In this document: in pieces, positions 2,167 through 36,603 of the stretch
Numbering within the stretch: the first letter of the stretch is position 1
Layout: the number at the start of each line of letters is the position of its first letter
Virus record (IMG/VR): IMGVR_UViG_3300033978_000922
Location: 1-36,603 of that record
DNA: 36,603 bases
Reading direction: 5' to 3' (one strand)
DNA from: a virus
Translations under genes and position numbers: made by a program
The notes under the pieces: generated by a model
Databases searched by the model: none
Told to the model about the DNA's origin: nothing
The model's input: the letters and a program-made list of their open reading frames with translations, nothing else

Positions 2167-2781
2167 ATGACATTTAGTATTGATATTCCCCATTTTAAAT
2201 GTTTTATTAATAAATCATTTCTTTATGATTGGGATTCTCAGCAAATTGGATATATACCCGTTCGCGTATTTGGACTAACTTCTATTCCTGGTAGATCCGT
2301 TGGTTTCAACCTGATGACTAACCAAGGAGCGCAATTTGCTAGAGTCCCCATTCATGCCTTAGCTTGGAAGGAAGATGGTGAGCAGTTGCCATTGGATTGG
2401 TTGCAATTGTGGGATTGCCTAAGTTATGAACCCTGCGCGATCGCCTATTCTTATCTTTCCGAATTACGCTGTAAGACTATTCTCAAAGACAGAAAATGGT
2501 ACGATGGCGAATATGTATTCACGATTGATTGGGCTGGTGGTGACTGGGCGGAAGACCCCAGTGAGCATAAATGTGGCCATGTTTTAAAATTGGATAATGG
2601 ATGTTTCGCAATACAACCAAATAATAGAATTGTTTGGTTCGATCCGAGTTTTATAACTGAACCACTAACGGAAAATCCTGGATATAAAATCCACACTCAC
2701 AGATATAAAAGCGAATCTTCTGGTAAGTGGATATCGGAAGATAGTGATAAATTTTTCTATGATATTCAAAAATACGAATAA
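2167..2781 (+). CDS. Hypothetical phage protein, probably tail-associated
   Basis: A 204-aa soluble protein starting 30 bp after the tape-measure-like gene, so probably co-transcribed with it. It is rich in aromatic residues (many Trp and Tyr, e.g. VFTIDWAGGDWAEDPSEHKC) and looks beta-rich, with no membrane segment or signal peptide. I do not recognise the family. Position directly after the tape-measure-like gene is where phages place distal-tail and baseplate proteins, so a minor tail role is a positional inference only. Confidence 0.6.
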   Translation: MTFSIDIPHFKCFINKSFLYDWDSQQIGYIPVRVFGLTSIPGRSVGFNLMTNQGAQFARVPIHALAWKEDGEQLPLDWLQLWDCLSYEPCAIAYSYLSELRCKTILKDRKWYDGEYVFTIDWAGGDWAEDPSEHKCGHVLKLDNGCFAIQPNNRIVWFDPSFITEPLTENPGYKIHTHRYKSESSGKWISEDSDKFFYDIQKYE

Positions 2782-6110: not shown

Positions 6111-6611
6111 ATGTCTGAGAAACCCGTATACGAAAAACTAGAAACTGAAACACCAAAAGCTTATGAAGCATTTTGCGCTTATCGTGATATGGGTTCATCG
6201 CGATCGCTTCATAGGGTAAGGGACGAAGAGGGCAAATCTCATGGTACTTTAGAGAAATGGTGTAGAGATCACAATTGGGTCAAAAGAGTTGAGGCTTACG
6301 ACATAGACCAAGAAGCGATCGCTAGACAAATTTTAGAGGAAGAAAATAGAGAAGCTTACAGAGAAAAGTTGAGAAAGTATCGCCAAGAAAATGAAGAAAT
6401 TGGCAATGCACTTCGAGCAACTGCTGTAATTGTGTTAAAGAAATTCAGAACATTTGCTAATGATTTAGATCCTAAAGATATCAAGCCTAGCAATTCGGCT
6501 AATATTGTTAGAGCAATAGATACTTGTTTAACACAAGGCGATCGCTTGTTATCTGATTCTTTGGCAATAGAAAAACTATTACAACAGATGAGTTCTGATG
6601 AGGAAGATTAG
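6111..6611 (+). CDS. terS: Terminase small subunit (TerS-like)
   Basis: A 166-aa protein. Residues 25-65 (AYRDMGSSRSLHRVRDEEGK then LEKWCRDHNWVKRVEAYD) match the helix-turn-helix of phage small terminases, where a final W-x-x-R-V-x-A-Y/W-D motif is characteristic. A helical oligomerisation-type region follows (residues 70-115). Its 3' end overlaps the large subunit by 14 nt, indicating translational coupling. TerS recognises phage DNA and regulates the large subunit during packaging. Confidence 0.75.
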   Translation: MSEKPVYEKLETETPKAYEAFCAYRDMGSSRSLHRVRDEEGKSHGTLEKWCRDHNWVKRVEAYDIDQEAIARQILEEENREAYREKLRKYRQENEEIGNALRATAVIVLKKFRTFANDLDPKDIKPSNSANIVRAIDTCLTQGDRLLSDSLAIEKLLQQMSSDEED

Positions 6612-8187
6612 AGGCAAAGATATTATTCTTCAGGATATATATGCCGAAAATCCTTTGGTAGATTATCATTCGCAAAAGTCAGATAAGCGATCGCATAAAG
6701 CCAAGCGAAGTATTCAGGATGAATTTATTGAACAGTTGTGGAAACCGCAAAAAGGATTCCAGCAAAAAGTTTATGAGTCAGAAGCGGATGAACTTTTAGT
6801 GGGTGGCGCGGCTGGACCGGGGAAGACGGCAGTTTTATTGATTGTGGCAACGCGATCGCATAGGAACTCGATTATTTTTAGACGGGAATATTCTCGACTC
6901 AAGGACGTAATTGAGAAAAGTCGCAGATTATTAAATTCTACTAGCGGTAGATACAACAGCACAGATAAAATTTGGCGACTTCCTGGCGGGAGAACATTAG
7001 AATTTGGTGCGGTTCAATATGAAGATGACAAAGAAAACTATCGAGGTCGAGAGCATGATTTAAAAGGTTTTGATGAATTGACAGAATTTAGTCAGACTCA
7101 GTACGAATTTATTATCACCTGGAATCGTTCATCCGAACCTACTCAACGCTGTCGGATTATATCTACCTGTAACCCTCCATCTTCAACTGAGGGAGCGTGG
7201 ATTATTGATTATTGGAGTCCTTGGTTAAAAGAGGATTATTCAGGCGATCGCGCATTACCCGGCGAACTAAGATGGTTCGCAACCTTAGATGGTGAATCTG
7301 TAGAAGTTCCCAATGGTGAAGCGTTTGAACATACCAATCAGGACGGAATAACAGAAACTATTATTCCTCGCTCTCGCTCATTTATCCCTGGTTCATTGGA
7401 TGAAAACATCTACTTGCGAGATACCAATTATCGAGGGATGCTACAGCGATTACCTGAACCACTGCGATCGCAACTCTTGTACGGTTCATTCAAAACTGTT
7501 GCTAAGAAAGATGACCCTTGGCAGATTATTCCAACTGAATGGTACGACGCTGCTGTAGCGAGATGGAAAGAAGCTGCACCAGCCCCACAATCACATTTAG
7601 GAGTTGATGTGGCCAGGGGCGGAGATTGTTCAAGTGTAATTGCCGTAAGACATCATCATTGGCTTGCACCATTAATAGAAATTCCTGGGAAGGATACACC
7701 TGATGGTGATTCTTTAGCTATGGAAATAATCAAGGTGATGCGATCGCAGAAAACAGAAATTAGGATTGACGTGGTAGGAGTCGGTAGTTCTCCTTACGAT
7801 TCTTTGAGAAGATTAAATGTTGAGCCAATTCCTATTAATGGCGGTGCTTCTGTTAAGGACGAAGACGGCAATCCCAAGAAAGATAGAAGTGGCGTTTTGC
7901 AGTTTTACAACCTGCGATCATATCTCTATTGGAATATGAGAGAAATTCTTGACCCCAAAAATAAAATGAATATCGCTTTACCGCCTGACTCCAGATTAAA
8001 AGTAGAGTTGTTAGCACCGCGTTGGTCAGTCACAAAAGGTAGGACTGAATTTGGGGAAATCAGAGTCGAAAGTAAAGATGATATTGTTAAGAGAATCGGG
8101 CGATCGCCTGATAAAGCAGATGCCACGGTTTACGCATTTGGGGAGATAGAAAATGAATTGTCTTATGAGTGGATGCGGGAGATTTGA
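6598..8187 (+). CDS. terL: Terminase large subunit
   Basis: A 529-aa ATP-driven DNA-packaging motor and headful or site-specific nuclease. Walker A is GGAAGPGKT (residues 69-77, Lys76) and Walker B is KGFDE (156-160, Asp159/Glu160). The RNase-H-like nuclease begins with LGVDVARGGDCSSV (Asp337), and a late SPDKADATVYAFG motif completes the acidic site. Length is normal for TerL. The TGA stop (8185-8187) is flush with the first CRISPR repeat: the array follows with no spacer DNA, and its minus-strand transcript would run antisense into the terL 3' end. Confidence 0.95.
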   Translation: MRKIRGKDIILQDIYAENPLVDYHSQKSDKRSHKAKRSIQDEFIEQLWKPQKGFQQKVYESEADELLVGGAAGPGKTAVLLIVATRSHRNSIIFRREYSRLKDVIEKSRRLLNSTSGRYNSTDKIWRLPGGRTLEFGAVQYEDDKENYRGREHDLKGFDELTEFSQTQYEFIITWNRSSEPTQRCRIISTCNPPSSTEGAWIIDYWSPWLKEDYSGDRALPGELRWFATLDGESVEVPNGEAFEHTNQDGITETIIPRSRSFIPGSLDENIYLRDTNYRGMLQRLPEPLRSQLLYGSFKTVAKKDDPWQIIPTEWYDAAVARWKEAAPAPQSHLGVDVARGGDCSSVIAVRHHHWLAPLIEIPGKDTPDGDSLAMEIIKVMRSQKTEIRIDVVGVGSSPYDSLRRLNVEPIPINGGASVKDEDGNPKKDRSGVLQFYNLRSYLYWNMREILDPKNKMNIALPPDSRLKVELLAPRWSVTKGRTEFGEIRVESKDDIVKRIGRSPDKADATVYAFGEIENELSYEWMREI

Positions 8188-8737: not shown

Positions 8738-10378
8738 TCACCAGAGAGTAAGCTGTGTATGGTTTTGAGAGGCACTTTCCGAAGGTCGCTGTTTTTTTGG
8801 CATTTTCTTTTTATTTTTGGCTGTTGGATTGGCTGAAATTGAGTCATGGCAAGCAACCGAAGTTCCCAGAAATAATGAAGGATGATATGTGATTGGATCA
8901 CCATATTCAGGTGATGGTGCTATTTCCGATCGCTCGGTCTTAGCTTCCTGATGACATTCCGTACTGGAATCAGAGTCAGGCTTTCGGGTTTCCCCATGTT
9001 CCCACGCCCAAGCGCGGTACACTGTTTTAAATTCTTTCTGCCCTTTAATCAAGATGTTTTTCGCTGCATTAGAATCGCGCCCATCTTCATAGCCACATTC
9101 TGTACAGCGATGGGTTCTTTGACTCAAGGCTTTTTTAATTTTAGCACCACAATTTGAACAGTCAACTGTAGTGTAATGAGCCGCAACTTTTACAAACTCT
9201 CTGTCAGTATCCTTGCACTTTGTTTCAATTTTACTAATCAAATCTCCCAAGGCAGCATCAGCAAAACTTTTATTTAATCCTGCTTTACGTTTTGCCCCAT
9301 TCTGTTCATAGCCTTTACCATCCTCACGCTTTTTAGCTTTTGGCTTGCGACTAAGATTTTGTATTTTTAAATCTTCCATCACAATACCGGAATATTCCCG
9401 TACTACTTTAGTAGATAGCTTATGATTAAAAGCGTTACGACTGCGACGGATTTTTTCATGATGCAATGCAATCTTTTGATAAGTTTTCTTCTGGTTACAT
9501 CCTCCTTTCTGTTGTCTGGATGCTTTACGCTGTAATCGTCTTAACTTAGTTTGTTGTTTCCTAAATAGTTTTGGTGGTGCAACTTCTCTACCTTGATCTG
9601 TCGTTATAACTGATAATAAGCCTGGATCAATTCCTACTGCTTTATCGGATTTTGGCAGGGATTCATTCGGAATATCAACACATACATGAAGATAGTATCC
9701 TGATGGTTCTTTGACTATTTTGGCACTACCCCATTCTATCCAATCATGTCTAGCAAATAAGCTTTTAATTTTGAGTTTACCAAGTTTAGGAAATTGGATA
9801 AAGCCATTATCAGATCCGGGTATTCTTTCCGGTTTTAACAGTTTTGACTTACCGCCTGCATGAAGACTTGTGAGCGATCGCACTTTATCCTGCTTACCTT
9901 TAAATTTAGGTTTTTGAGTAGGACGTTTAGGGTCGCTGTATGCTTGCCATGCTTTTTTAAGTGTATCCGCCATACCCTCTTTAAATTCAGATGGTATATC
10001 AATTACAAATTGTGGAGAATTATCATTTCTAAAATATTTAAATTTCCCAGGTTCTTCAATGTTCCTGTATTCTCTAATTGGACAATAAGGATAGCCACTT
10101 TTAGGACGGACAACACCACCACCGACTAATCTGATTTTCTCCCATTTCTCAGTAGTCTTACCCTTCTTATCTGTGGTTTCAACTTTACGCCATTTCCATC
10201 GCAGTGGTAGTCCATCGGGGATATTGCGATCGCCTATTTGAGTTCTGTAATACTTCTGTCTATCAGCAAGTTTGAGAGATAGACCTTTATTCCACACCCA
10301 TTTAATATCTTGCAGCCATTTATCAATAGTCTGTGACTGTGCGAGTGTGGGATAAATTTTAAATTCGATAGTTTTCAT
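8738..10378 (-). CDS. cas12: Compact TnpB-like type V CRISPR effector (Cas12, type V-U class)
   Basis: A 546-aa RNA-guided nuclease of the TnpB/Cas12 superfamily. The N-terminus (MKTIEFKIYPT, then WVWNKGLSL) is that of TnpB/OrfB_IS605. RuvC-I is AVGIDPG with Asp251, RuvC-II is IVMEDL with Glu335, the zinc ribbon is C407/C410/C425/C428, and RuvC-III is GRDSNAAKN with Asp435. The catalytic triad is intact, so DNA cleavage is expected. A Ser/Lys-rich tail of about 100 residues follows the RuvC domain, and its coding DNA overlaps a repeat-complementary sequence. The gene faces against the flanking phage genes and ends 5 bp from a CRISPR array. No tnpA, cas1 or cas2 is present. TnpB-like V-U effectors, including cyanobacterial V-U2, are the closest named relatives; the exact subtype cannot be set by eye. 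Confidence 0.85.
   Translation of the reverse strand: MKTIEFKIYPTLAQSQTIDKWLQDIKWVWNKGLSLKLADRQKYYRTQIGDRNIPDGLPLRWKWRKVETTDKKGKTTEKWEKIRLVGGGVVRPKSGYPYCPIREYRNIEEPGKFKYFRNDNSPQFVIDIPSEFKEGMADTLKKAWQAYSDPKRPTQKPKFKGKQDKVRSLTSLHAGGKSKLLKPERIPGSDNGFIQFPKLGKLKIKSLFARHDWIEWGSAKIVKEPSGYYLHVCVDIPNESLPKSDKAVGIDPGLLSVITTDQGREVAPPKLFRKQQTKLRRLQRKASRQQKGGCNQKKTYQKIALHHEKIRRSRNAFNHKLSTKVVREYSGIVMEDLKIQNLSRKPKAKKREDGKGYEQNGAKRKAGLNKSFADAALGDLISKIETKCKDTDREFVKVAAHYTTVDCSNCGAKIKKALSQRTHRCTECGYEDGRDSNAAKNILIKGQKEFKTVYRAWAWEHGETRKPDSDSSTECHQEAKTERSEIAPSPEYGDPITYHPSLFLGTSVACHDSISANPTAKNKKKMPKKQRPSESASQNHTQLTLW
8843..8896 (-). ncRNA. Candidate tracrRNA/scaffold anti-repeat inside the cas12 3' coding end
   Basis: On the plus strand, 8879-8896 reads AGGATGATATGTGATTGG. 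The minus-strand CRISPR repeat contains AGGATGTCATGTGATTGG, so only two adjacent bases differ, and similarity extends to 23 of 29 positions over 8868-8896. The effector mRNA strand therefore carries an anti-repeat able to pair with each crRNA repeat (6 bp, a 2-nt internal loop, 10 bp). A second short complement, CTTGCCATGAC on the minus strand (8843-8853), could pair with the GTCAT and GGCAAG parts of the repeat. The extent of any mature RNA is unknown. The coding sense is preserved (PITYHP, residues 495-500). Confidence 0.6.
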
Positions 10379-15891: not shown

Positions 15892-15963
15892 GTCCCTGTC
15901 GAATAGTGGTTAATTCTCCAGGTTTTCATTCTGGCAACGAGGGTTCAATTCCCTCCAGGGATA
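15892..15963 (+). tRNA. tRNA-Glu (anticodon UUC)
   Basis: A complete 72-nt cloverleaf without encoded CCA. The acceptor stem GTCCCTG/CAGGGAT has 7 pairs, the first being G-U. The D arm is GAAT/ATTC with loop AGTGGTTA, the anticodon stem is CCAGG/TCTGG with loop TTTTCAT (anticodon TTC), the variable loop is CAAC, and the T arm is GAGGG-TTCAATT-CCCTC. The discriminator is A. It reads GAA/GAG codons. It sits at the convergence of the rightward structural block and the leftward block. Confidence 0.93.
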
Positions 15964-30701: not shown

Positions 30702-31325
30702 TTAATATCCCTCTCTTTGTTCTTGCTTGCTACCTAATAAGTCCAATTGGTTAACTTTAACAACGGCTTTTGAACGCAATTCGCCACTATTTCTGTCATT
30801 CCATTCCTCAAATTTGAGTTCTCCTATTACTCCAATTAATCCACCCTTGCGAACGTAATTCCCCATAACTTCAGCAGTTTTACCCCATGCTTCCAAGCTA
30901 AACCAGTCAGTTTCTTGATAGCGTCTAACTGCTAGTGAGTTTGTCGCTTTATTAGTCCCAGACTCAAAATATTTCATATCTGTATCTTGTCCGATACGCC
31001 CGACAATATTTACAGAATTAATATTAATTGGACTGGAAACCGCTTCAAAATTATTGATTTTGAACTCAGTCAAATAAACTTTGTTTCCGTTTTGCTCCCG
31101 CTTAATGATGTTGATTGAACCAATTACAATGAGATTTTGACTTTGTTGTAGTTGCGCGATCGCTTCTGCTATCTTCCCGAAACTAACGCATCTGATATTT
31201 TTAATTGATTCGGATTTTGATGGATTAACAAAACCTAATTCAAAAATGCAAACTGTCTTGTTGTCTGTGGTGTGTCTTAGTTGTGGAGGGATTACAATTA
31301 TCCCTCCTAGAACTGCATTATTCAT
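30702..31325 (-). CDS. ssb: Single-stranded-DNA-binding protein with two OB folds
   Basis: A 207-aa protein. The C-terminal half (residues about 103-200) is SSB-like: NSVNIVGRIGQDTDMKYFES, then TNSLAVRRYQETDWFSLEAW and GGLIGVIGELKFEEW. The N-terminal half has the same strand pattern (AVLGGIIVIPPQLRHTTDNK, then RCVSFGKIAEAIAQLQQSQN and LIVIGSINIIKREQ), so it appears to be a second, diverged OB fold. The C-terminus ends EQREGY rather than the usual acidic DDDIPF tip, so host SSB-tip partners may not bind. Confidence 0.85.
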   Translation of the reverse strand: MNNAVLGGIIVIPPQLRHTTDNKTVCIFELGFVNPSKSESIKNIRCVSFGKIAEAIAQLQQSQNLIVIGSINIIKREQNGNKVYLTEFKINNFEAVSSPININSVNIVGRIGQDTDMKYFESGTNKATNSLAVRRYQETDWFSLEAWGKTAEVMGNYVRKGGLIGVIGELKFEEWNDRNSGELRSKAVVKVNQLDLLGSKQEQREGY

Positions 31326-31363: not shown

Positions 31364-32560
31364 TTATTCAGTAGGTAATAAATTATTTTCTTGCCATTGT
31401 TGCTGCCTACTGTCTGGGTCAATGTCGTAATCAATTGGATAAGCTGGTTCTCCCGAATAAGAGGGAACCGTTTCTTTGATCGAATCAATGCTTTTCTTCA
31501 GGAATTTGCCGAACTCAGTTAATTGTTCTTCTGACATCACATTCAGATTGCCAGGAAGAGGATATTCCTCACCAATTAAAGATTTGTACTCATTAGATAA
31601 TTCAGCTATTCTTTTCCGAAATTTATCTGCCCGTGTCTCAATAGCCGAAGGTAGTTGCTTGGGAGTTTCTGATACTACCTCAACATCTATGATGGTAGAA
31701 GAGTCTCCAGACAGTAATCCAGCATAAGTAGCTGGAGAAATTGCAATATTACGAGATTCCATTTCTTGAATCCGTTGCCATTTTCGCAGCATCTCCATGT
31801 ATTGCGGATCAATTTGAATTGACAAAGCCCAAGTCGTATCATCGGCTTTTTTGCCTGTTCTTAAATTATTGCTAATAACAGGTCGTTTTATTTTGATCTC
31901 TGTGCGAGTCAAAATGAACGGGATTTTATTTGACCAATGATAAGCAAGGGGAAAATTAGGCGAAGAAGTTAAACTCCCAAAAGCTAATTTTATTTGCTCT
32001 AGCTGCTCAGGAATATTAACTAAATCCTCGTAACTGTGAGTTGTCAGGCATCCAGGAATCATCATGGATTTATCCATTAGTTCCCGAACATAAAAATAAA
32101 GTTTGCCTTCTTTCTGGCATCCTTCTGGGCATTGCTCAAATATCTCGCATCCTCTCATTGGGCATGGATCAGCGACATCAATAATTGGCCTGTATTTATT
32201 CCCTTTTGAATCCTCAGTTATCACGCACTTTTTACTGATAGTGTGGCGATCGCAAACTATCTTTAGCCCACTTGCTTCATAGCTTTTCATGGAAGTCACG
32301 AATATTCTATCTATGTCGTCATAAGGGAGATAGATATTAATTTGATCTGTCACAAAATCTCCGTTTACATCTGGAACTCCATAAGAGTTCGACTGCTTCA
32401 AGACTAAAGATGCAACGTTATTTACTGTTGTTAGTCTTAGCTGTTGATTTAGGTCTTTACCAAATCTGTTAACTTGCTTGCGACCGCCTTTAAAAGCGGA
32501 AACTTCTATTCTACCCAAGCTATTTTCTGGTCTTTTGTCTGTTAGTCCAAAAATACCCAT
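31364..32560 (-). CDS. Recombination-directionality-factor-like protein
   Basis: 398 aa from the ATG at 32560, preceded by AGGAGAC; an earlier in-frame start at 32620 lacks such a site and overlaps the upstream gene. The N-terminus (IFGLTDKRPENSLGRIEVSA) and a Cys cluster (CPMRGCEIFEQCPEGC) followed by LYFYVREL and a THSYEDLVNIPEQLEQI segment resemble Gp3-like directionality-factor proteins of temperate phages, which switch serine integrases to excision. The serine integrase is not in this window. The C-terminal 120 residues are acidic and helical. Moderate confidence in the family. Confidence 0.6.
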   Translation of the reverse strand: MGIFGLTDKRPENSLGRIEVSAFKGGRKQVNRFGKDLNQQLRLTTVNNVASLVLKQSNSYGVPDVNGDFVTDQINIYLPYDDIDRIFVTSMKSYEASGLKIVCDRHTISKKCVITEDSKGNKYRPIIDVADPCPMRGCEIFEQCPEGCQKEGKLYFYVRELMDKSMMIPGCLTTHSYEDLVNIPEQLEQIKLAFGSLTSSPNFPLAYHWSNKIPFILTRTEIKIKRPVISNNLRTGKKADDTTWALSIQIDPQYMEMLRKWQRIQEMESRNIAISPATYAGLLSGDSSTIIDVEVVSETPKQLPSAIETRADKFRKRIAELSNEYKSLIGEEYPLPGNLNVMSEEQLTEFGKFLKKSIDSIKETVPSYSGEPAYPIDYDIDPDSRQQQWQENNLLPTE

Positions 32561-32582
32561 AATGTCTCCTGAATGGTTAAAT

Positions 32583-32948
32583 CTATAAAGTATCCAAGCT
32601 AATGTGTTGGAAAAATTCATGAAGCTGATTTAGTGTTTTTATTTCTGTCTCCCAAAGATATGGAAACAATTTACTTGCACGACCTTCATCGAATTCAACG
32701 ATAAACTCCTCTCTGTGACAAACAATTAATTTGTCTTGTCGAGGCATCAAGACGATGCAATATTTTTTCTTTTTTTTGTAGCCAGCGTATTGATCTCGTT
32801 GCACGAAAATCAATCCATCAATTTCATCTAAATAATCTCGTGCCAGTGAATAAAGATCACTTGATTCACTTAGCATCTTGATGTCTGTTGAAAGTATCTT
32901 AGGAATACCATCAACTATTTCAAAAACTTGATTTACGGAAAATCTCAT
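32583..32948 (-). CDS. Hypothetical protein, 121 aa
   Basis: A mixed alpha/beta acidic protein. It has acidic helices (MLSESSDLYSLARDYLDEID), then a Lys-rich beta segment (YAGYKKKKKYCIVLMPRQDK). It starts the leftward operon segment after an intergenic region (32949-33063) containing two HIP1 sites. No recognised family. Confidence 0.6.
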   Translation of the reverse strand: MRFSVNQVFEIVDGIPKILSTDIKMLSESSDLYSLARDYLDEIDGLIFVQRDQYAGYKKKKKYCIVLMPRQDKLIVCHREEFIVEFDEGRASKLFPYLWETEIKTLNQLHEFFQHISLDTL

Positions 32949-34220: not shown

Positions 34221-36059
34221 TTACTCAATAAATAAACATCTGATTCTTTGATCTTGTGCAATCATCGAAGCGGTTGTTCTTGCCTGTTGTATATCGCCTT
34301 CATTGCTTGGCAAAAAACCAATAGCAAGTAATTTATATTCGTTGTTAATACCGTACAAATGCAATTGTCCGGCTGCCTGGTAAATAGTATCTCTGGTGAG
34401 AAATTTTTTAATCTCGATAATTGTCCCACCATCAAAATCAGTGGCGATATCTACAAAGCCGCCATTGCACTTAACCTCTAATTCTGCTTTGTAACCATAC
34501 TGAATAAGTCGAGAGGCGATCGCCTTCTGCAAGTCTTCCTCCCGCCACTTATCCGGCAATTTTAGATTGGCGGTAATCGTTGACCATGTAACTTCATTAT
34601 TCGCGTCTGTCAACTCTAAATTATTTTTGAGAAGTACCAGAGCTTCATGAGTTAATGACGCTCCTGTCACTTGTTGCCAGGCTTGAATCAGTTCAGAATC
34701 GGTAGGATTTCTGCCAAGCTGGCTTATCCAATCTTTTATTATTTGATAAGGATTTGGATTGTCATGTTGAGTCACTTCCGATGATTCCGGCGACTCAACA
34801 TCAAAACTAAATTTACTCAAATCAAGAAACGGAATAACCTCAACCTTTGCCATTTCTCCTAACTTGCGAACCACACAAGCAAACCCCTGAGACTTCTTGA
34901 GAGTGCGCTGCAATTCCATCTGTTCTTGAAGTAATCTCTTAGCTTCAAAATCAGCCGGAAATTTAGTATTAGGATCAGCCAATGCCGAACCCAAGCATAA
35001 AACATCCATTTGAAAAAGAACGGAACTGTCAACACCAATTCTCTCTTTTTTGAGAGAGTGCATACCCAATGTGATATTGATTAAATATTTCCGTCCCTCG
35101 TCTTGAGTTTGAGCAATAATATTCATTACTTCTGCCTTTTCGGCATCAGTCAATCCCATGACAAACCCCTCAAATTCATCACAAATTAATTTGAAAGGCT
35201 GACATTCAGAATGATTTTGTTTAATTCCTTTCTCAATTCTGTAATCGAGTAGCTGCTTGGCACGGCGGAACATCTTCAGGATTTGATCTGGCTTCTTGGC
35301 TACAAACTGATTTAACAAAACATCAGTTGGCACACCTGGCAGCCATTGTGATTCATCCTCATCAAAATGCTTATCCCCAATCCTCAATTCTCCATCGGGA
35401 AAGTGAGTGAGGAATGCGATCGCTTCATAAGCCAAATACACCGACTTACCGCTTCCTTTTGGACCGAATACAGCTTTCGAGGCATTGATAAATTTTGCAT
35501 CCATCCAAGTGTGATCGACGGATACAGCCAAATCATCGGATATTTGTTCAAAAGTAGACTGACCGGGGTTAAAACTTCCCTTGAGTGCGGGCGGTTGCTG
35601 GGCCGCTGGCTGTTCAATCACGGCTTGCTGGATTTGTGGTAATTCCACTAATCCATGCAAGCCATATTGCTGCATCCATCGGCCGCGCTCCTCCACCGGG
35701 AGGCGATTAATTTGAGCCGCTAACTCTCGCTTGGAATTTATTTCTTGAGCAGCTTTTTCATAGGTGAAAGTTCCTCTTAGTTGTTCATTTACTATTTGGA
35801 AATTCGCTTCCTCTATAGCTTGATAAGTTTTCTCCTTCCTCTGTCGGCGATAACATTCTGCCGAAAAACAAAGAGATGAAGTCAAACCCCATATATTTTG
35901 GATTAGTTTGACTTCCTTAATTTGACTTGGGAAAAGAATAGGCAGAGTAGTTCCAATAACTGCGGTTGCACCAAGCAATCCCAGTAAAATCCTTTCAGAA
36001 ATTATTAATGGCTCAAAGCATTTTTTCTCCCTTGCGAATGGATTCGGCGATTCCAGCAT
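34221..36059 (-). CDS. Membrane-anchored FtsK/HerA/VirD4-like ATPase with PD-(D/E)XK-like C-terminus
   Basis: A 612-aa protein. Residues 21-43 form a membrane segment (SERILLGLLGATAVIGTTLP), and a second hydrophobic patch lies near 57-66. A coiled and Pro/Gln-rich linker (80-175) follows. The P-loop is VFGPKGSGKS (197-206) and Walker B is FKLICDEFEG (289-298, Asp294/Glu295), typical of the FtsK/HerA/VirD4 additional-strand ATPases. The C-terminus (about 520-612) contains GGFVDIAT ... GGTIIEIKKF, i.e. Asp537, Glu549 and Lys551, as in restriction-endonuclease-like folds. The ATPase is clear; the nuclease activity is inferred. Confidence 0.7.
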   Translation of the reverse strand: MLESPNPFAREKKCFEPLIISERILLGLLGATAVIGTTLPILFPSQIKEVKLIQNIWGLTSSLCFSAECYRRQRKEKTYQAIEEANFQIVNEQLRGTFTYEKAAQEINSKRELAAQINRLPVEERGRWMQQYGLHGLVELPQIQQAVIEQPAAQQPPALKGSFNPGQSTFEQISDDLAVSVDHTWMDAKFINASKAVFGPKGSGKSVYLAYEAIAFLTHFPDGELRIGDKHFDEDESQWLPGVPTDVLLNQFVAKKPDQILKMFRRAKQLLDYRIEKGIKQNHSECQPFKLICDEFEGFVMGLTDAEKAEVMNIIAQTQDEGRKYLINITLGMHSLKKERIGVDSSVLFQMDVLCLGSALADPNTKFPADFEAKRLLQEQMELQRTLKKSQGFACVVRKLGEMAKVEVIPFLDLSKFSFDVESPESSEVTQHDNPNPYQIIKDWISQLGRNPTDSELIQAWQQVTGASLTHEALVLLKNNLELTDANNEVTWSTITANLKLPDKWREEDLQKAIASRLIQYGYKAELEVKCNGGFVDIATDFDGGTIIEIKKFLTRDTIYQAAGQLHLYGINNEYKLLAIGFLPSNEGDIQQARTTASMIAQDQRIRCLFIE

Positions 36060-36063
36060 TTCA

Positions 36064-36354
36064 TTATCCCCCTACAATTATTCCAATACTTAGTGCAACA
36101 ATGGCCGCCGTTCCAAAAACATAGATAGGGGCAAATCCTACAATGGATTGGTTTCTGGACAGATGCCCGTTGGTCTGATACCAAAGTCCGCACCAATTGG
36201 AGAAGCCCATAGCTACAATTACTAAAAAGCTAACAATGAATAGGGCGATCGCGCCATTTCGAGACTCAGGAAAGCCCTTGATAATTTGTCCCAGAAGCAG
36301 GAAGAAAGAGAATCCAGATACACAGTATCCAGTGTAGAGTAGGTTCTTCATCAT
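36064..36354 (-). CDS. Three-span membrane protein, 96 aa
   Basis: Hydrophobic segments at about residues 5-26 (LLYTGYCVSGFSFFLLLGQI), 35-52 (AIALFIVSFLVIVAMGFS) and 73-95 (GFAPIYVFGTAAIVALSIGI). It lies 4 bp before the ATPase gene and overlaps the upstream 30-aa gene. Probably a membrane partner of the ATPase. No family recognised. Confidence 0.7.
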   Translation of the reverse strand: MMKNLLYTGYCVSGFSFFLLLGQIIKGFPESRNGAIALFIVSFLVIVAMGFSNWCGLWYQTNGHLSRNQSIVGFAPIYVFGTAAIVALSIGIIVGG

Positions 36355-36443
36355 CTTCTCATGTCATATTGTAAATATAAAATCATGCCCAAGAAAAGAG
36401 CAATTAATAGAATCGTAATTACACCTTTAGCGTCTGGAATCAT
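36351..36443 (-). CDS. 30-aa single-span membrane peptide
   Basis: A strong ribosome-binding site (AAGGAGG) precedes the ATG at 36443. The peptide is MIPDAKGVITILLIALFLGM, then ILYLQYDMRR: one membrane helix with a basic end. It overlaps the next gene by 4 nt (ATGA) and the upstream gene by 17 nt. Its tight packing and ribosome-binding site argue that it is translated. Confidence 0.6.
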   Translation of the reverse strand: MIPDAKGVITILLIALFLGMILYLQYDMRR

Positions 36444-36603
36444 TGATTTCAGCCTCCTTACTGGCTAAATAAAAAATATTTGCACAACCAAAAGCCAGTT
36501 CAGAGCCAATCACAAACACACCGCATAATACTTTTAAAAACATCATGCTGGGATTACCTAACTGCTTGAGATTGATTTCGTAATCAGTCCAAAAAGTGTA
36601 GGA
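36427..36603 (-). CDS. Membrane-associated protein, 3' part (gene continues beyond the window)
   Basis: The frame is open to the window edge and ends at TAA (36427-36429). The visible 58 residues include LKVLCGVFVIGSELAFGCAN, a hydrophobic segment, then IFYLASKEAEINDSRR. If the internal ATG at about 36546 were the start, the product would be a 39-aa membrane peptide; otherwise it is the C-terminus of a longer protein. It precedes the membrane/ATPase module. Confidence 0.5.
   Translation of the reverse strand, partial: SYTFWTDYEINLKQLGNPSMMFLKVLCGVFVIGSELAFGCANIFYLASKEAEINDSRR

Follow-up and report, generated by a model that had tools for sequence, protein, structure and literature searches.

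A membrane ATPase-nuclease fusion in an exchangeable cassette of phages and plasmids of filamentous cyanobacteria: a possible DNA-translocation machine

What use would a phage have for a protein that joins a membrane anchor, a P-loop ATPase and a predicted nuclease, and that is encoded behind a string of small membrane proteins? This question is raised by one end of IMG/VR record IMGVR_UViG_3300033978_000922, a fragment of a siphophage genome whose 36,603 nt we refer to here as the window. It is related to Aphanizomenon phage vB_AphaS-CL131 (82.9% DNA identity across 26% of the window's right-hand 16.6 kb). Judged by its sequence, the window is a piece of a CL131-like siphophage with a terminase of its own (the large terminase, TerL, at 6598-8187), and it also encodes a DnaB-like helicase, an O-like initiator, methyltransferases and an anti-repressor. 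Just past the terminase, on the opposite strand, lies a transposase-like gene (phrog_506; 546 aa; 8738-10378, minus strand). Elsewhere, a gene at 2167-2781 (plus strand) matches the ferredoxin PHROG phrog_3704 (E = 4.6e-76), a tRNA-Glu (TTC) at 15892-15963 (plus strand) adjoins the genes for dCTP deaminase and thymidylate synthase, and a protein with an SSB domain (residues 102-196) and about 100 extra residues ahead of that domain adjoins a Gp3-like, recombination-directionality-factor-like protein (genes 30702-31325 and 31364-32620, both minus strand).

The protein in question is 612 amino acids long and is encoded on the minus strand at 34221..36059, as defined by the ORF call, a PHROG match and its homologues; the PHROG, phrog_38189 (E = 1.5e-54), has no assigned function. 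Residues 1-145 (35625..36059) form an N-terminal anchor, a hydrophobic hairpin of two helices according to hydropathy, alignment and a low-to-medium-confidence model. The anchor is followed by a P-loop ATPase core that we call type 1 (residues 160-432; 34764..35582), delimited by alignment and the family network, and by a three-helix, putatively DNA-binding domain (residues 436-485; 34605..34754), delimited by alignment and modelling. The three-helix domain is kept in ATPase types 1 to 3, and its domain matches were all sub-threshold, including a weak match to HNH_repeat in one plasmid homologue. A C-terminal domain (residues 497-612; 34224..34571), predicted to be a PD-(D/E)XK nuclease from alignments, a model, Foldseek and dN/dS, completes the protein. 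Comparison of the window with contig L003, a 96%-identical relative, gave dN/dS values of ~0.05 for the ATPase and ~0.09 for the nuclease (range 0.05-0.1), which argues that both are under purifying selection.

The original prediction had described a transmembrane FtsK/HerA/VirD4-like ATPase, and the anatomy behind that description held up: the anchor is present, and both the Walker A motif (GPKGSGKS, residues 199-206, including K205; 35442-35465, minus strand, placed by alignment) and the Walker B motif (ICDE, with D294/E295) are invariant in all six of the six phage homologues. Also invariant across six phage homologues is an E-G-R-K...G-M-H block (G322-R-K at 322-324, M333-H334), and the Oscillatoria plasmid homologue carries the Q version of this GR...Q/H sensor motif. 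The 612-aa protein itself had no match to the FtsK_SpoIIIE or DUF87 profiles of Pfam; sub-threshold DUF87 matches came from the L004 and Nostoc homologues, an above-threshold FtsK match was found only in the separate MS1 protein, and a PDB profile search tied the ATPase weakly to HerA (E = 0.012). A full-length model (pTM 0.29) was poor across the ATPase, and its structure matches were dominated by the nuclease domain. Putative membership of the FtsK-HerA superfamily is supported by the Walker A and Walker B (DE) motifs, by the GRK...G-M-H/Q motif and, in sister proteins, by weak matches to HerA/FtsK.

The C-terminal domain had been read as a restriction-like nuclease from its D-x(11)-E-x-K block, and conserved residues, a predicted structure and Foldseek all bear this out; neither of the two outcomes named as fatal to it, a fold of another kind or residues that vary, was observed. 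An AlphaFold (AF2) model of residues 485-612 (mean pLDDT 87.4; topology H-E-E-E-H-E-H-E) contains the alpha-beta-beta-beta-alpha-beta core of the PD-(D/E)XK superfamily, and its best Foldseek matches in the PDB, mostly restriction-like nucleases at the top, were EndoMS/NucS, Ecl18kI, Can2, SfsA, EcoT38I and BamHI (E = 1.5e-3 and weaker; probabilities up to 1.00). In nine copies of the domain, whether fused or free, and in a more distant set of six sequences that includes plasmid proteins, the putative catalytic residues D537-x(11)-E549-x-K551 do not vary; D537, E549 and K551 sit on adjacent predicted strands (534-540 and 546-553), and E507 and Q565 are likewise conserved across fused and free copies. 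As HMMER found no relative of solved structure by sequence and the Pfam match, to PDDEXK_9, was sub-threshold (E = 0.056), the fold assignment rests on the model and Foldseek, which support a predicted PD-(D/E)XK nuclease. The model also resembles XisH (2inb, 2okf), the excision factor of the fdxN element of Anabaena and Nostoc. Synonymous divergence between the window and L003 is 0.19-0.26 across the anchor, ATPase and three-helix domains but reaches 0.65 in the nuclease, which suggests a separate exchange of that domain.

The string of small, overlapping membrane genes upstream of the ATPase was found as originally described, and it is conserved. Next to the ATPase gene lies the gene for a protein of 96 aa with about 3 TM segments (36064..36354, minus strand; ORF call, hydropathy and comparison of loci), and the phage-type loci, which we call class A, have a similar small membrane protein upstream of their ATPase. 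It overlaps by 4 bases a 30-aa ORF (36351..36443, minus strand) for a single-TM microprotein. Conservation of its protein sequence among CL131 and related phages (MI(V)PDAKG-I-ILL-ALFLGMIL-LQ) makes a genuine microprotein gene very probable. The window ends within the gene for a 166-aa protein with 3-4 TM segments, of which only the 3' part is present (36427..36603, minus strand; ORF call); this gene is whole in the near-identical contig L002 (3286-3786) and was seen in the CL131 group only. In L003, an internal deletion at about 2380-2530 joins the 166-aa and 30-aa genes, so these two may be dispensable.

Contig L002 gives the gene order beyond the window's edge: an acidic protein of 188 aa, a one-TM protein of 127 aa, a helical protein of 143 aa, the 166-aa protein with 3-4 TM segments, the 30-aa and 96-aa proteins and the ATPase. 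A simpler order, in which genes for a ~180-aa acidic, a 1-TM, a ~145-aa helical and a ~95-aa 3-TM protein precede the ATPase, recurs in CL131, in lytic Nostoc, Anabaena and Dolichospermum phages, in a Leptolyngbya phage and in Nostoc and Halotia plasmids. The same order is found in a GC-richer cyanobacterial genome (G060, L097), and sequence identity among the copies of the operon is low. The gene set is thus present in both cyanobacterial phages and plasmids, where the original prediction had proposed to look for it. That prediction had also seen in the locus a possible sign of phage-plasmid life; what emerged is a cassette common to phages and plasmids of filamentous cyanobacteria, and such a life is not shown for the window phage itself.

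Domain-by-domain comparison indicates that the cassette's central protein has been assembled from parts. Against CL131 gp108, the window protein is 59% identical in the anchor, 76% in the three-helix domain and 84% in the nuclease, and its ATPase core is only 27% identical; with the proteins of phages N1, A-1(L) and Elbi it shares 33-39% identity in the ATPase and 21-26% in the anchor. By this pattern of identities the window protein is a chimera, in which a CL131-group chassis carries an N1-like motor. Profile-profile comparison of the two motor types gave no significant link (probability 2%), and we therefore treat ATPase types 1 and 2 as exchanged cores that are at most distantly related. 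The anchor is combined with a type-1 ATPase and no nuclease in lytic Nostoc, Anabaena and Dolichospermum phages, and with a type-2 ATPase and no nuclease in Nostoc and Halotia plasmids and in contigs L039 and L040; Leptolyngbya phage Lbo402-yong5 has a third ATPase type. The nuclease domain, in turn, occurs as a separate protein (46-50% identical) with a C-terminal hydrophobic helix of its own in two Nostoc plasmids, pNSMS102 and UHCC 0302 unnamed6, and two viral contigs, L031 and L032; in the plasmids this free nuclease is encoded directly behind, or one gene behind, an FtsK-type membrane ATPase.

Matches were found in nine of 50,697 phage records, with hosts in Nostoc, Anabaena, Aphanizomenon, Dolichospermum and Leptolyngbya, and in fifteen of 72,556 plasmids, with hosts in Nostoc, Halotia and Oscillatoria. 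These genera are all filamentous. A first scan of genome contigs found no close cellular homologue of the whole 612-aa protein, and a scan with a profile of the anchor found 30 Nostocales loci. Counted by genome, the anchor profile matched 23 of 193 genomes in the family of a Nostoc genome and 2 of 390 across the class. A type-1 profile search of the class matched 13 of 390 genomes, all 13 of which contain hetR, compared with 198 of the 390 overall. Genome size and plasmid load confound this comparison, since none of the 13 genomes is smaller than 4.9 Mb, and one of them, G001, is the centre of the sample; the sequences are thus only suggestive of an association of the ATPase with filamentous, hetR-positive hosts.

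The examined ATPases of these 13 genomes and those of the phages and plasmids form one connected BLAST network, from which the FtsK-type MS1 protein alone is left out, and in which the links of the type-2 and Lbo402 proteins to the window protein run partly via the anchor. With the ATPases of genomes G132 and G090 the window core shares 36-39% identity over 237-268 aa (E about 1e-39). At nine loci, including those of G132 and G090, the gene downstream of the ATPase encodes a one-TM protein with an M23 domain, often together with an SLT/lysozyme domain and sometimes with trypsin (L079, L092, L095, L096, L098, L099, L101, L102 and L103), and in L100 a CHAP-like protein takes its place; the calls of wall hydrolases come from Pfam in seven proteins and from motif reading in the others. 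Apart from one integrated element and one viral contig, these hydrolase-linked relatives come from contigs of bacteria. Near the ATPase of the Oscillatoria plasmid relative (L016) there is a GH108 gene. Wall hydrolases are absent from the class A loci examined, the window included, and searches of plasmids with one hydrolase-linked ATPase and of phages with the ATPase of G174 gave no match.

Two of these elements deserve separate mention. The chromosomal region L092 (2990-15081) combines, by reading, an annealing-protein-like gene, a tyrosine-recombinase-like gene and an operon of ATPase and M23/lysozyme genes, and by its gene content is a candidate integrative transfer element. The 80-kb viral contig L079 (7026-8705), a phage or a plasmid, has the ATPase with its M23 protein and a glucosaminidase-like protein nearby. 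One Pfam model for TerL gave no match in six viral records, which may be fragments; other TerL families exist.

Nucleases recur around related or analogous ATPases in other forms as well: PD-(D/E)XK domains are fused, as in the window, or separate with a TM segment, and HNH-like genes (CxxC...HH...CxxCH), with weak Pfam support, lie directly downstream of class A ATPases in G060 (L073, 2735-3106), G174 (L094, 9057-9419) and G208 (L093, 9703-10161). In two class A loci a single-TM neighbour protein ends in a bacterial SH3 domain, above the Pfam cut-off in L094. Because PD-(D/E)XK, HNH-like, M23/SLT and SH3 domains occur in the linked genes, their sequences point to ties of related ATPases with the cutting of DNA, through no fewer than two unrelated families of nuclease, and with cutting or binding of the cell wall.

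These ties of its homologues to peptidoglycan hydrolases and nucleases make DNA translocation, a role raised in the original prediction, the best-supported one, with DNA itself as an inferred cargo. We propose, at a probability of roughly 0.4, that phages and plasmids of filamentous cyanobacteria carry, as an exchangeable cassette, the genes of a small machine that spans the envelope and translocates DNA, with the 612-aa protein as its motor. This protein would be held in the cytoplasmic membrane by its N-terminal helices, alongside the 96-aa multi-TM, the single-TM and the helical soluble proteins; the FtsK/HerA-type ATPase, probably a hexamer, would drive double-stranded DNA through this complex. 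Recognition of DNA may fall to the three-helix domain, and the fused nuclease would cut or trim the DNA as it passes. Such a machine would most likely serve to carry the element's DNA over the envelope or septum to the next cell, the task of TraB/Spd in Streptomyces and of TdtA/NurA in Thermus. We infer the DNA cargo, the hexamer or ring and the direction, and, by analogy with these systems, any spread between cells. That phages and plasmids of multicellular cyanobacteria share an undescribed machine of motor and small membrane proteins that sends DNA from cell to cell along the filament, through the septa and without exit, is an extension of this reading that we consider unlikely. Several points speak against a pump: why a lytic phage should move DNA from cell to cell is not obvious, the class A loci examined lack wall hydrolases, the ATPase model is of low confidence and the HerA link is weak.

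In Streptomyces, FtsK-like TraB and three to six small spd genes mediate plasmid spread across septal cross walls, and the cassette resembles this system: in both, an FtsK-like membrane motor is accompanied by a number of small membrane proteins, and the element that carries them belongs to a multicellular bacterium (PMC4170104). We found no sequence link between the window protein and TraB. To our knowledge, TraB has neither a fused nuclease nor a linked M23/SLT hydrolase. Hallmarks of the TraB/Spd system are dsDNA transfer by one protein and recognition of clt/TRS through a C-terminal winged helix; what comes after the ATPase in the window protein is the three-helix domain. A second likeness is to TdtA of Thermus, a ring ATPase of the FtsK-HerA superfamily that sits at the membrane and donates DNA with the help of a NurA-like nuclease; the genes for ATPase and nuclease share one operon of a mobile element (ICETh1 transjugation; PMC5365140). 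However, NurA is a separate and different nuclease, and no matching operon of small membrane proteins is described. PD-(D/E)XK nucleases such as NucS/EndoMS, Ecl18kI, Can2 and XisH have the predicted fold and catalytic residues in common with the window's domain at 10-22% identity, but the window's is fused to a membrane ATPase. HerA-nuclease defence pairs and Zorya likewise combine an ATPase with a nuclease, with membrane association in Zorya, whereas the window protein matches no defence model, its family often lacks the nuclease and some relatives are linked to wall hydrolases. A known anti-phage defence system was considered and set aside: PADLOC gave no match for the window protein, and HerA/mad8-type P-loop matches arose in sister proteins only.

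The main rival to DNA translocation is exclusion of superinfecting phages or plasmids, in which, by analogy with Zorya, a membrane complex would sense incoming DNA at the envelope and the ATPase-nuclease would pull in and destroy it, shielding the resident element. Carriage by competing mobile elements, fusion of the nuclease to the ATPase and the HNH and SH3b partners at some loci would all suit such a role, and the swapping of ATPase cores and nucleases looks like an arms race over specificity. Yet many members have no nuclease at all (N1, A-1, Elbi and the Nostoc plasmids), the wall-cutting hydrolases of the relatives fit passage through the wall better, and no PADLOC defence model matches the window protein. 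Exclusion, which the original prediction had named alongside translocation, is neither supported nor dismissed by these results, and we regard it as a serious though rather doubtful explanation.

An ATPase of this kind might instead act in segregation or membrane tethering, positioning or clearing replicated DNA at the membrane in the manner of FtsK or partition systems, with the nuclease resolving tangled or concatenated DNA. This second rival draws on the FtsK-type relatives, on ParM/StbA-like genes that adjoin the ATPase in L016 (annotated) and L103 (by reading), and on the cassette's position near helicase and DNA polymerase B genes in lytic phages; but the ParM neighbours were seen in two loci only and the wall hydrolases and SH3 domains of the relatives have no obvious role in segregation, which we consider quite improbable. 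The union of ATPase and nuclease in one phage polypeptide also recalls large terminases, and would fit a packaging motor. Such a role is scarcely credible, however, and we rejected it: the window has a separate TerL (6598-8187), the cassette occurs on plasmids, which have no capsids, and a membrane anchor is unlike a terminase. Returning to translocation, some of the plasmids that bear the cassette are typed as having a relaxase and an MPF_T system apart from it, so that it would not be their sole transfer route; annotation and reading of the sequence around the phage and plasmid loci showed no VirB4-type ATPase, relaxase or mating-pair channel genes.

An FtsK/HerA-type DNA motor on a mobile element is a known kind of thing. 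The proteins of phrog_38189 (CL131 gp108 and those of Nostoc phages N1 and A-1 and Anabaena phage Elbi) are annotated as hypothetical or as 'DNA translocase FTSK', and share anchor, three-helix domain and operon with the window; gp108 has the same nuclease but another ATPase core (27%), and the N1, A-1 and Elbi proteins, unlike the window protein, have no nuclease. Searched by terms, the CL131 genome paper mentions neither gp108 nor an ATPase, and the N-1/A-1 genome paper neither FtsK nor an ATPase. The literature found in the library we searched does not describe the family, the swapping of motors in a fixed anchor-nuclease frame, the sharing of the cassette between lytic phages and plasmids, or the link to M23/SLT hydrolases. 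Even if its role were exclusion, the cassette defines a family now annotated merely as hypothetical or 'FtsK'. If DNA is moved, filamentous cyanobacteria would have a DNA pump borne on mobile elements, apart from the type IV systems used for plasmid typing, common to lytic phages and plasmids and built from interchangeable motor and nuclease modules; and this would provide a concrete, testable answer to the question whether phages and plasmids can travel inside multicellular cyanobacterial filaments.
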